From Sedimentisphaerales bacterium (lineage in GTDB: Bacteria; Planctomycetota; Phycisphaerae; Sedimentisphaerales; SG8-4): a DNA stretch of 57,668 bases. The DNA lies in contig JAFGCA010000584.1 in the NCBI GenBank assembly GCA_016932895.1, positions 1-57,668 of the forward strand, read 5' to 3'. Below are positions 10,919 through 47,698 of the stretch, piece by piece. The notes under the pieces were generated by a model that was given only the letters and a program-made list of their open reading frames with translations, was not told the DNA's origin and ran no database searches. Position 1 is the first letter of the stretch. Each line of letters opens with the position of its first letter. Position numbers and translations under genes: made by a program.

Positions 10919-11030
10919 GTGGCAGCGTCAAGCGGCAGCTTGGCGATGGGGGACTTCTGCGCCTCGTACGCTCCCGGAGGGTCCTTCGGCGTTGCGCCAT
11001 CGCCAAGGCCTGCGGCCTTGACGCTGCCAC
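10919..11030. repeat. Copy A of the 112-bp GTGGCAGCGTCAAG palindromic repeat
   Basis: An imperfect palindrome. The left arm begins GTGGCAGCGTCAAG and continues to CTTGGCGATGG. The right arm is the reverse complement, ending CTTGACGCTGCCAC. The right arm contains its own 6-bp hairpin (AAGGCC-TGC-GGCCTT, 11005-11019). Three more copies occur in this window (25297, 28996, 47418), all between genes. About 30 bases before the left arm (from 10891) also resemble copy C. The remaining intergenic DNA on either side (10658-10918 and 11031-11144) shows no gene. Confidence 0.85.
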
Positions 11031-24355: not shown

Positions 24356-24481
24356 CCGTATTCTCAGTTACGGTCGAGAGTTTTGCAGAACTCCATTCAC
24401 AAGAGTCGGGTTCGCCGCGATGATAGCCGAGATCGTGTGGGTCGTCAAAGATGAACGTCCCAGGGTCCAATTGTCGGTACG

Positions 24482-25296: not shown

Positions 25297-25380
25297 GTGG
25301 CAGCGTCAAGCGCAGCTTGGCGATGGCGCTTCGCACCCGGACATCCCCATCGCCAAGGCCTGCGGCCTTGACGCTGCCAC
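25297..25380. repeat. Copy B (short, 84 bp) of the GTGGCAGCGTCAAG palindrome
   Basis: Both arms of the repeat described at 10919 are present, with one base missing in the left arm (CGCAGC instead of CGGCAGC). The centre is about 28 bases shorter than in the 112-bp copies. The right arm is identical to that of copy A (AAGGCC-TGC-GGCCTT hairpin). It lies between the C26 gene start and the MBL gene stop on the minus strand. Confidence 0.85.
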
Positions 25381-28818: not shown

Positions 28819-28995
28819 GGCGTTTTCCTCCAGCGAAGACTCTCTGTCACTTCATCCGGCCGCCTCGTGGCAACTACCGCCACGGCACGGCCCATCGGAC
28901 ACGCCATAGAATACCGGTCCCAGCCGAAAAGAGCAATCTCCGCAAAGCCGGTCGGCAAGGCGCCCGCGCGTCTGTGAGAATGCCCTGGCATGTGG

Positions 28996-29107
28996 GTGGC
29001 AGCGTCAAGCGGCAGCTTGGCGATGGGGGACTTGTCTGCTGCGTGTGGAGCTGTATGAACCCCGGGGGTTGAGCCATCGCCAAGACCTTCGGCCTTGACG
29101 CTGCCAC
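28996..29107. repeat. Copy C of the 112-bp GTGGCAGCGTCAAG palindromic repeat
   Basis: The same length and arms as copy A. The right-arm hairpin reads AAGACC-TTC-GGCCTT and so has one mismatch. The 5' flank from 28968 resembles the flank of copy A (GCGTCTG...). The 3' flank (GGTTGTCCAGGGCCCAAAAC and on to about 29139) matches copy D. It lies in the 442-base gap between divergent genes (28819-29260); no gene is seen there. Confidence 0.85.
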
Positions 29108-29260
29108 CCGTGGTTGTCCAGGGCCCAAAACAATGATGCCCGAAAGAGTGCTCAGACTCCGCGTCCGCCGGTGCGACGACTTCTCCTTGACGCGGCGGCC
29201 GGGCCTTTGTAGACTGGTTGTCGGTGTTTGGGCTGTCGTTGGGCACACAGGGGGATCTTC

Positions 29261-34434: not shown

Positions 34435-34490
34435 TCGTCGTGTGACAAGCGACGCAGCAAGGGGTATTGAATCCTTGAAAGGGGATGATC

Positions 34491-36164
34491 ATGGACTTTC
34501 GCAGTCGTTGTTTTGCCGTCGTGGCCGTTGCGGCCCTGGCCGCGCCCGTCTGCCTCGCCGACGTCGAGGCGACCCGAGAGACCTTCACGATCTCGGGGTC
34601 GCTGGGCCTGCCGGGCGTGACGATGCAGGGCTTTCCGGGAGCGCCGGTTAGCGACGACAACGGTTGTTACAGCGTCGTGGTGCCGCACGGGTGGAGTGGT
34701 ACGATCAGCCCGGTCAGGGAGGGCTTCCTGTTCGCGCCTGTGAACAAGCAGTACGCGTCAGTCCGAAAGGATATGGAGAACCAGGACTACGTCGCTGCAC
34801 GGATTACCTTCACGATCTCGGGACAGGTGGGCTTGGCGGGCGTGATCATGAGGGGGCTTCCCGGGCAGCCGATCACCGATGCGCGCGGTCTCTACCTGAC
34901 TCAGGTGGACTACGGCTGGACGGGCGTCGTAACTCCTGAGAAGGAGGGGTATACCTTCGAGCCTCCGCAGAGGATGTACACCAGGCTGGCGGCCGATCAG
35001 ACCAATGAGAACTACTCGAGCCGGCAGCGCACTCTGACGATATCCGACTGTATCATCGTTGGCGACGAGCCTTTGGAAGGTGTGACGGTCACGGCCGATC
35101 CCGGGGAGGCCTCCGTCGTGACGGATTCGCGCGGGCGTTACAGCCTCGAAGTCCCCTTTGGCTGGACGGGCCAGCTCACTTTGTCCAAGCCGGGCTTCGT
35201 TTTCACGCCTTCGAGCAAACCGTACCGAAATCTCACGATGGATATCGTCGACGGAAAGGCCCGACCCCCGGCCGGTCTGACCGTGGGAAGGTCTCGCGCG
35301 ACAGGCCGTTTTCCCGGTCAGCCCCCGCTTCGGCCCTCCTCACCGCCGAACGTTCTGGTGGTACCGACAATGCAGGTCGATCCCGCCGGCTTTGCCGAGA
35401 TGACGGAGGACCTGGGCGTCATGCTCCACATTCTGCAGGAGAAGCTGAGCAAGCCTCAGACGATTCTTGGCGTGCTCGACGACTATGGCGATTTCTTCGC
35501 CTCCGACAGCGAGGGGGCCCGGGCCCTGTACATCCAGGGTCACAGCGTCCTGTTCCTGATGGAAGTGAATTTCCCGTTGCCGTCGGCGGTCGATGCGCCG
35601 GTGCGCGTCGAGCGCGAGCCCGCCGGGCCGGTCGATCCCGTCTGGCAGAGAGCGCGCGAGAAGCTGTACTCGCCCGGGTCGACAATGAGACGCCTCCCGG
35701 CAGCGACGGAGACGATCAGCTTCGAGCAGTTCCAGGAAGACCTGCTCAAGACGCTCAAGCACGCCGCCAATATCCGCCACGTCGATCCCAACGAGAAAGT
35801 GATCCTGACCGTTCTCTCGCAAAGCGGAGGGGCTTTGCCGCCCGGCGCGGGAGGCTTTGGCGGTTCGGCGTTCGGCAGGAGCGGGGGAGGCGGTTACGCC
35901 GCAGGCGGCTCGGCCGGAGGCTTCAGCGGCGGGAGCAGCCCCTTCGGTGGGGGCGCGGGCGGGGGGAGCTTCCGCAGCGAATCCTTCGGATACGGCTTTG
36001 GAACAGCGGGCTCGAGTTTGCGCCGGGGCGCAATCCCTGCTGCTGCGGCGAGCGCGACCACGGTGCTGACGATGCAGGCGCGGAAAGCCGACATCGACGC
36101 GTTCGCCCGCGGTGAGCTGGACGTCGAGCAGTTCCGAGAGAAGGTCAAGACGTTTGCGTATTGA
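34491..36164 (+). CDS. Secreted triple-repeat, glycine-rich protein
   Basis: A 557-aa exported protein with a signal peptide (SRCFAVVAVAALAAPVCLA-DV). Residues about 25-250 are three copies of a ~75-residue beta module. In the first two the pattern is FTISG-x-GLxGVxMxGxPGxP, a DxxGxY strand, GWxGxxxPxxEGxxFxP and a closing Y; the third copy is diverged (LTISDCIIVG). This resembles carboxypeptidase-regulatory/Cna-B-like modules. The middle (about 285-445) is unrecognised and mixed, and residues 450-520 are very rich in Gly and Ser (GGGYAAGGSAGGFSGG). No enzyme motif is seen. ATG 34491 fits AAAGGGG best; ATG 34485 is in frame. It lies downstream of the first ECF/anti-sigma pair. Confidence 0.78.
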   Translation: MDFRSRCFAVVAVAALAAPVCLADVEATRETFTISGSLGLPGVTMQGFPGAPVSDDNGCYSVVVPHGWSGTISPVREGFLFAPVNKQYASVRKDMENQDYVAARITFTISGQVGLAGVIMRGLPGQPITDARGLYLTQVDYGWTGVVTPEKEGYTFEPPQRMYTRLAADQTNENYSSRQRTLTISDCIIVGDEPLEGVTVTADPGEASVVTDSRGRYSLEVPFGWTGQLTLSKPGFVFTPSSKPYRNLTMDIVDGKARPPAGLTVGRSRATGRFPGQPPLRPSSPPNVLVVPTMQVDPAGFAEMTEDLGVMLHILQEKLSKPQTILGVLDDYGDFFASDSEGARALYIQGHSVLFLMEVNFPLPSAVDAPVRVEREPAGPVDPVWQRAREKLYSPGSTMRRLPAATETISFEQFQEDLLKTLKHAANIRHVDPNEKVILTVLSQSGGALPPGAGGFGGSAFGRSGGGGYAAGGSAGGFSGGSSPFGGGAGGGSFRSESFGYGFGTAGSSLRRGAIPAAAASATTVLTMQARKADIDAFARGELDVEQFREKVKTFAY

Positions 36165-36172
36165 GAGGAGTT

Positions 36173-36334
36173 CTGCAAAATGGAGATTAGGCTTACTTTA
36201 GGAAGGAAGAACCGTCCTCGTGATTCTTCCTTCCGAGAGCGCAAGTGCTTGCGTATAGGGTTGTAAACCCATTCTTCAAGGAAATCACACCAACGATTTC
36301 CTTGAAGAATACAAGCCTAATCTCCATTTTGCAG
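36173..36334. other. 162-nt multi-hairpin element with 22-bp perfect terminal stem
   Basis: The terminal arms 36173-36194 and 36313-36334 are perfect reverse complements (starting CTGCAAAATGGAG). Inside, four hairpins account for most of the rest. The first is GGAAGGAAGAA (36201-36211) with its complement at 36224-36234, 11 bp perfect. The second is CGCAA/TTGCG around 36240-36253. The third is GGGTT-GTA-AACCC (36258-36270). The fourth is a 16-bp perfect stem, 36271-36286 with 36295-36310. The element is clearly more AT-rich than the surrounding coding DNA. It starts 8 bases after the stop of the glycine-rich protein gene. It could be a MITE-like mobile element, a structured RNA or a terminator; it does not look like an attC site or tRNA. 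Confidence 0.8.
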
Positions 36335-36372
36335 GGCTCTGGCTGCCAACCTGACAAGGAAAGGGAAGGAAG

Positions 36373-37158
36373 ATGAAGCGCACGGTTCATTACAGCGGGA
36401 TTGTCGGCGTTCTGGTCATTGTGATAGCGGCATCGGTTCTCGCGCAGAGCCGGACGGGAACGAGTTCCAGCCGGCAGCGTCGCCAGGTGCAGGCGCCTCC
36501 TTCGTGGTCGGCCGATCCGCAGGTGGGATTCAGGGAAGGGGAAACGCCCGCCGAATTCCAGGCCCGGCACCAGCGCGAGTTTCAAGAGCGCATGGCCGAG
36601 ATGCAGCGCCGGGCCGCGGAGATGCAACGCCGCGCCGAGGAGAGCCGGAACAACGCGATCCGGCAAGCCGTGGGGGCGACCGATGACCAGTGGCGCCAGA
36701 TCAAGCCGAAGCTGGACCTGATCGGCAAGCTCAAGGCCGAGGCGGAGGTCTGTGTCGATCCCGGCGCGTTCGGCGGGATGTCCGGCTTCCAGGGCAATGC
36801 GTTCAGCTTTGGCGGCGGATTCGTCGGCGGTGCCGCGGGAGGAGGCGGCTTCGGAACGATGGGAGGCTCGGGGCAACCGGGGCAAAACCGGAGCCAGTTC
36901 CAGAGCTGGAGCTGGCCGTCGGGTGCCACGGACAAAACGCCCGGCGAGATGACCGACGGCGAAGCCCTCTGCGCCCAGCTTCAGGACCTGATGCGCGATC
37001 CCACCGCTTCGCCGGAAGAAATCACCCAGAAGGTCGCGGCGCTGCGCCAGATCAGAAAAAACGCCCGCCAGAGACTCGCCCGGGCCCGCCAGATTTTGCG
37101 AGAAACACTGGCGCCCGCCCAGGAAACCCCGCTCATCGCCATGGGCTACTTGGACTGA
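36373..37158 (+). CDS. Secreted coiled-coil/glycine-rich protein of unknown function
   Basis: A 261-aa protein with a signal peptide (IVGVLVIVIAASVLAQ-SR). Residues about 65-100 are a charged heptad-like helix (EFQERMAEMQRRAAEMQRRAEESRNN). Residues 140-175 are a glycine-rich stretch (GGGFVGGAAGGGGFGTMGGSG). The end (LMRDPTASPEEITQKVAALRQIRKNARQRLARARQILRETL) is helical and reads like the tail of LTXXQ/Spy-like periplasmic proteins in planctomycetes; this resemblance is tentative. The ribosome-binding site GGGAAGGAAG lies directly upstream. Together with the preceding gene it may form the output of the first ECF module, although the 162-nt element separates them. Confidence 0.72.
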   Translation: MKRTVHYSGIVGVLVIVIAASVLAQSRTGTSSSRQRRQVQAPPSWSADPQVGFREGETPAEFQARHQREFQERMAEMQRRAAEMQRRAEESRNNAIRQAVGATDDQWRQIKPKLDLIGKLKAEAEVCVDPGAFGGMSGFQGNAFSFGGGFVGGAAGGGGFGTMGGSGQPGQNRSQFQSWSWPSGATDKTPGEMTDGEALCAQLQDLMRDPTASPEEITQKVAALRQIRKNARQRLARARQILRETLAPAQETPLIAMGYLD

Positions 37159-47391: not shown

Positions 47392-47417
47392 CGGAGCGTT
47401 TCCATTGAGGGCGGCGG

Positions 47418-47529
47418 GTGGCAGCGTCAAGCGGCAGCTTGGCGATGGGTGATTTGTCCGCTGCGTGTGGCGCTACACGAGCCCCGGGCGTTGCGCCATC
47501 GCCAAGTCCTTCGGACTTGACGCTGCCAC
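47418..47529. repeat. Copy D of the 112-bp GTGGCAGCGTCAAG palindromic repeat
   Basis: The same length and arms as copies A and C. The right-arm hairpin is AAGTCC-TTC-GGACTT (47504-47518). Compared with AAGGCC/GGCCTT in copy A, both sides of the pair have changed, which supports selection or inheritance of the structure. The centre contains CGTGT/ACACG. The 3' flank to about 47562 matches copy C. The 524-base gap 47175-47698 otherwise holds only the terminator hairpin and the neighbouring repeat. Confidence 0.88.
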
Positions 47530-47698
47530 TCGTAGTTGTCCAGAGTCCAAAACAATGATGCTCTAAAACCTGCATAGACCCCACCGACAGCGGCCGTGTG
47601 CAATTGACTTGCGAACGGTCCGCTGTTTGATTACAACAGACCTCCATGGACGCATCAGAGGATCGTCACATGACAAGAGATGCCGTGGAGGTAGACTG

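Follow-up and report, generated by a model that had tools for sequence, protein, structure and literature searches.

A probable palindromic, MITE-like element between two planctomycete genes and its predicted in-frame relatives within proteins

Background

Bacterial MITEs such as RUP, Correia/NEMIS and ERIC are short, multi-copy elements with terminal inverted repeats and target-site duplications that encode no transposase and lie mostly beside genes. The planctomycete family described here resembles them in all of these respects, but keeps its full length and a two-hairpin architecture over many species, with pair-preserving changes, and is restricted to one order in our sample.

The Rickettsia palindromic elements (RPEs) insert in frame into conserved genes and contribute a conserved peptide, according to the consulted parts of two reviews (PMC10969869, PMC2229807). 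Like the present family, they are described there as palindromic, roughly 150 bp long and found at both intergenic and in-frame sites. The likeness is architectural and drawn from description, whereas the planctomycete branch belongs to another phylum, measures 177 nt and has two subterminal hairpins. In the sources consulted, knowledge of in-frame palindromic elements comes mainly from Rickettsia and Wolbachia, and the portions of PMC10969869 and PMC2229807 considered here do not establish what moves them. Duplications are seen in related planctomycete copies, while the RPE entry in a review table is '?' (PMC2229807, in the part consulted). If a distant phylum has its own, independent family, complete with duplications and a candidate IS256-type parent, the mechanism would become open to testing.

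Members of the IS256/Mutator-like superfamily generate duplications of 8-9 bp, as stated in the consulted parts of PMC5225508 and PMC3169594. These elements and fold-back derivatives such as Tm1 compare with the planctomycete family in near-identical ends (at one locus), a similar duplication size and long fold-back ends; Tm1, however, is eukaryotic, and the planctomycete link to IS256 comes from that one locus. REP/REPIN sequences with their RAYTs share the dispersed inverted hairpin pair, but the planctomycete element has a long terminal stem, direct repeats at its insertions and no link to Y1_Tnp in the loci examined. Short tagged REPs have been reported in Planctomycetes (PMC3733652) and, by the part of the description consulted, are a different thing. 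A description of the present family was not found among titles and abstract openings of open-licence literature on planctomycete MITEs, dispersed repeats and in-frame palindromes, which argues weakly for novelty; as far as seen, the palindrome family is new.

Results and discussion

The element was found in a 57,668-nt stretch of DNA from a Sedimentisphaerales bacterium (contig JAFGCA010000584.1), hereafter the window, where it occupies positions 36167..36340 on the + strand. Taken as an explanation of the whole locus, one copy of a palindromic, non-autonomous, MITE-like transposable element of about 175 nt is the reading we prefer, with a probability of roughly 0.9. The preliminary description had reported two perfect 22-nt arms enclosing four further stems, in an element more AT-rich than its flanks. 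An inverted-repeat search recovered the arms at 36173-36194 and 36313-36334 with perfect complementarity, and pairing with two mismatches extends to 36168-36194/36313-36339 (27 nt, 93%). The perfect 16-bp hairpin is present at 36271-36286/36295-36310, the 11-bp and two 5-bp stems appear in predicted folds, and the GC content is indeed low (44% vs 63% for the whole window). Folding of 36167-36340 gave -59.9 kcal/mol as DNA (z -14.3) and -100.7 kcal/mol as RNA (z -13.6), with 0 of 200 shuffles as stable in either case.

By comparison with the family, the element runs from about 36167 to about 36340, and its helices belong to a terminal stem, to the conserved hairpins B and A, or to a middle part of low conservation. 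The terminal stem, 28 bp long and conserved in the family, is formed by the left terminal repeat (36167..36194, + strand) and the right one (36313..36340, +), the outermost bases of which are mismatched in the window copy. Hairpin B (36196..36239, +; arms 36196-36211 and 36224-36239) corresponds to family helix 2, in which both partners have changed in 8 of the 14 pairs. It is followed by the variable middle (36240..36270, +), which folds into two small 5-bp stems and is unconserved among the aligned copies, and by hairpin A with its perfect 16-bp stem (36271..36310, +; family helix 3). The family covariance model matches the element over its full length (model positions 1-176; 158 bits on the + strand, 86 bits on the -), the copy aligns with 20 others with hairpin B first, and it encodes no transposase. 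The 14-mer GGAGTTCTGCAAAA of the left end recurs inverted at 24381-24394, as first noted in the preliminary description. This site (24381..24394, - strand) lies 5' of a gene with a dicarboxylate-symporter Pfam match and is likely a solo terminal-repeat remnant, a reading of the sequence prompted by the many solo ends beside genes in G081, a genome with copies of the family.

The upstream neighbour (34485..36164, +) encodes a glycine-rich protein with a weak carboxypeptidase-regulatory-like match; the downstream neighbour lies at 36373..37158 (+). The location between these genes stood on the upstream side, where the stop codon is at 36162-36164, and needed correction on the other, where 38 bases, not 39, separate 36334 from the start at 36373. 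Relatives of the upstream protein carry the names Phycisphaerae, Phycisphaerales or Sedimentisphaerales. Among 31 loci of such relatives, the spacer of the gene pair was measurable in 8, at 15, 15, 19, 21, 21, 25, 40 and 172 nt vs 208 nt here, and a covariance-model search of 13 of the 31 gave one weak match only (L008:4415), outside the measured spacers. These element-free spacers indicate that the two genes were long-standing neighbours before the element came between them; within its family, the window copy is an intergenic member of the ordinary kind.

When the genomes of 12 relatives were searched at the DNA level, many copies turned up in G002, G008 and G009 and some in G006 and G011; the other seven gave chance-level matches only. 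The terminal-repeat pattern matched 55, 76 and 45 times in G002, G008 and G009, respectively, against 2, 8 and 9 matches with the reversed pattern. Fifty-four stretches with candidate copies were retrieved from the relatives for comparison, and a covariance model (R1) was built from an alignment of 21 full copies. R1 detects family members in 29 of the 161 genomes of the order of G002 (E <= 0.001, with stricter filters and at most 17 candidates scored per genome), two of which (G004 and G010) contributed one weak match each. Phylum-wide, 2 of 392 sampled genomes were positive, namely G002 and a genome with a 52-nt match (E 2.9e-4); as far as sampled, the family is confined to one Phycisphaerae order. 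Collections of plasmids and phages gave no meaningful match (best E 6 and 2, respectively). A putative copy on a viral contig (L180) was rejected as chance, with one exact pattern match and no element by the covariance model. The preliminary description had suggested a covariance-model search of relatives as its check, and the outcome is positive, with many copies and compensatory changes. Such a repeat model would also aid the annotation of planctomycete genomes.

Read with hairpin B first, the copies consist of a ~28-bp terminal stem with GGCCTA or a similar sequence at its end, followed by hairpin B, the variable middle and hairpin A. The reverse complement of hairpin A resembles hairpin B, loop included, so that the element amounts to an inverted repeat of a unit of terminal repeat plus hairpin. 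Copies in G008 vary in the middle, with lengths from 103 to 271 nt among the copies listed, and in the 103-nt G008 copy (L072) the A half is fused to the B half. By eye, the loops of hairpins A and B in the alignment are often near reverse complements, which could permit loop-loop pairing or reflect the descent of both hairpins from one.

RNAalifold on the 21 copies yielded 52 pairs, 28 with a double change. The paired cells (96.4% vs 84.9% shuffled), the double-change cells (132 vs 40.7) and the covariation score (0.377 vs 0.158) were each equalled in 0 of 500 shuffles, the covariation counts being inflated by the relatedness of the copies. Further pair types (53 vs 49.2) were matched in 31 of 500 shuffles, and sliding the partner columns by 1-3 left only 36-57% paired.

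The same mobile element might owe its double changes to template switching, in which a single event re-perfects a palindrome, rather than to selection for the fold, a view to which we give slightly less than an even chance. Arms within a copy match each other closely, as expected from such events: Watson-Crick pairs account for 93.3% of the 28 outer pairs in 98 oriented copies vs 66.7% with arms swapped between copies (200 trials, maximum 69.3%). The outer arms of the in-frame branch discussed below are very different yet remain paired, again in line with template switching. So are the terminal-stem mispairs, with A-C and G-U about equally common (54 A-C, 41 G-U and 74 other in 97 copies, one copy with too many mispairs having been dropped and orientation to transcription being uncontrolled); they show no G-U excess pointing to RNA. 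Template switching alone, however, leaves the conservation of loops and of motifs, the GGCCTA end among them, unexplained, although this is not decisive.

Movement of the family is supported by its insertion sites. Flanking direct repeats (score >= 7) were found in 18 of 100 copies, whereas shuffled flanks averaged 0.4 and never exceeded 2 (200 shuffles); 17 are perfect repeats of 7-10 bp and one matches at 10 of 11 positions. The other 82 copies lack a clear duplication, and the window copy is among them, in agreement with the preliminary description; other copies do carry duplications. In the 18 duplications, it was more often the left side that had the greater offset from the element end.

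Among 83 copies of 150-235 nt, the nearest copy was in the same genome for 22 of 23 in G081, 12 of 17 in G078, 10 of 16 in G002, 4 of 4 in G006, 3 of 3 in G008 and 3 of 3 in G009, and for 0 of 2 in both G011 and G014. Mean identity was 0.75 within genomes and 0.62 between them, and the nearest relative of the window copy is a G081 copy at 74%. By a crude gene call, 18 of 24 copies in G081 lie between genes, 5 overlap a gene edge and 1 is in a probable shadow frame. Dispersed copies, flanking direct repeats and empty sites thus back the non-autonomous mobile element that was one of the explanations first offered for the locus. Movement may be provided in trans by a DDE transposase, perhaps of the IS256 (Mutator-like) type, that recognises the terminal repeats and inserts copies through staggered cleavage over about 8-9 bp. 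The fold-back shape would be kept either since folded DNA helps movement or by template-switch repair of the palindrome. The window copy would then represent an old insertion separating two genes that are usually close neighbours. The 177-nt sister branch has an open frame and lies in frame within protein genes.

A structured RNA or cis-regulator between the two genes, also proposed at the outset, could draw on the very stable RNA fold and on the site between co-directional genes, a setting shared by several other copies. We consider it improbable, as the gene pairs of eight relatives lack the element, copies are dispersed beside unrelated genes and within genes, the window has 0 matches to Rfam families at gathering score, and the mispairs described above lack a G-U excess. 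A secondary RNA effect of the mobile element is possible. The suggestion of an elaborate terminator found no support in a simple pattern scan of 35900-36600, which detected neither promoter- nor terminator-like sites.

A branch of the family lies within protein genes. By a crude gene call, 7 of 17 copies in G078 lie inside long open frames. Six of these and the G002 copy L062 specify nearly the same ~59-residue peptide in the same frame; the seventh (L249) has the opposite orientation and lies downstream of an apparent signal peptide. A search with the peptide gave matches in 8 of the 161 genomes of the order. For G078, 18 of 40 scored matches (105 candidates) are in stop-free frames of >= 300 aa, and 13 of these 18 frames have Pfam domains. 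Altogether, 20 of the 27 host frames scanned carry a Pfam domain at E <= 1e-6 (14 in G078, 3 in G076, 2 in G002 and 1 in G077), a proportion to be read in light of 20 further stretches having been picked mainly for long frames, a selection that favours domain matches. Six frames in which no Pfam domain was found (L284, L288, L290, L292, L297 and L301) are kept in the denominator, and the short frames L294 and L302 were left out of the domain scan. L228, which the crude gene call had placed inside a gene, was rejected as a host since it has no Pfam domain and resembles an antisense shadow. L296 contains an undetermined base after the insert, and its upstream half alone is supported.

The domains flank or span the insert in 10 of the 20 frames (L062, L239, L240, L241, L286, L287, L289, L291, L295 and L299), the insert of L241 being placed by alignment. 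In alignments to solved structures, PurQ-, PdxB- and NAD-synthetase-like proteins have conserved blocks on either side of the insert. The insert site of an MTHFR-like gene of G002 is empty in G076, where the gene has an insert elsewhere, and the sites in a propeller/cytochrome protein differ between G078 and G077; the G077 insert adds 186 nt, or 177 + 9. Inspection of translations showed a PdxB-like insert common to G078 and G076 and a GH127-like insert common to G078 and G002, indicating that such insertions can outlive species. An in-frame palindrome with a conserved peptide is thus a property of the 177-nt branch and not of the window copy.

By sequence, the branch sits in frame within host genes without breaking the reading frame, its peptides being predicted ones. 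In kind, it works like the Rickettsia elements. The odds lean a little towards a wider interpretation, in which an undescribed selfish palindrome outside the Rickettsiales would have split into an intergenic and a protein-invading lineage. The latter would have changed its arms without losing the ability to fold, been cleared of stop codons in one frame and, with a 9-bp duplication added to its 177 nt (62 codons in total), placed ~60-residue peptides into PurQ-, PdxB-, NAD-synthetase- and MTHFR-like enzymes. Such genes would be natural experiments on the tolerance of enzymes to ~60-residue inserts.

The IS256 family (PF00872) was surveyed at 19 loci with matches in 12 genomes. One of them, L303 in G008, has a gene for a full Transposase_mut (Pfam) and is flanked by GTTCTGCAAAATGGG and, opposite and inverted, by AGTTCTGCAAATGGG, two ends whose likeness continues inwards; the G008 elements begin with GGAGTTCTGCAAAATGGGGAGT or GGAGTTCTGCAAAATGGAAGT. 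A whole-locus scan for end pairs ranked L303/L322 (one place) best, with 3 edits in all vs 5 for the best pair in the Y1/ISL3 and DDE_Tnp_1/IS1595 loci. Thirty of the 161 genomes encode homologues of the G008 transposase, examined at one locus per genome, and the best eight end-pair matches listed for the homologue loci are all L322. The closest checkable relatives of the L303 transposase have ends that differ from those of the element, and a clear duplication was not seen by eye in the L303 flanks. At about even odds, an IS256-family insertion sequence is a candidate transposase source; a further possibility is that the element left one of the L303 ends behind as a stray remnant. If true, the link would connect protein-coding palindromes with a recognisable insertion-sequence family.

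Other transposase loci examined, those with PF01797 (30 of 47 matches covered) and PF01610 in 8 genomes and with PF01609 and PF12762 in 6, contained no element by the model and no convincing pair of ends. The least probable reading, a REPIN-like element moved by a REP-associated tyrosine transposase, would fit the two hairpins in inverted orientation and the Y1_Tnp genes in 8 of 8 genomes examined, but 42 Y1_Tnp and ISL3 loci (+-1.5 kb, 8 genomes, with that same coverage of Y1_Tnp matches) lack the element and many insertions have direct repeats of ~7-10 bp. An autonomous parent of the mobile element was also sought in G081, in 20 stretches chosen from 78 terminal-repeat pattern matches mainly for ends without a near partner; none of these bounded an insertion sequence, and most of the inspected ends adjoin genes as partial copies.

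Other repeats were seen alongside the family. The window contains four copies of a second dispersed inverted-repeat family (10919-11030, 25297-25380, 28994-29109 and 47415-47532), with the outer arm GTGGCAGCGTCAAG and folds of -55 to -75 kcal/mol. At least three further in-frame repeat peptides, of the KVRRSEGEKV...VRPSD, STGILPV...GRDAHA and PAAPGWGKNTPEGGGAT types, occur in host proteins, the hosts falling into the groups L241, L245 and L290 (G078), L240 (G078) and L295 (G076), and L249 and L285 (G078). The DNA of these peptides also forms strong hairpins, and several palindrome families may therefore invade proteins in this group.
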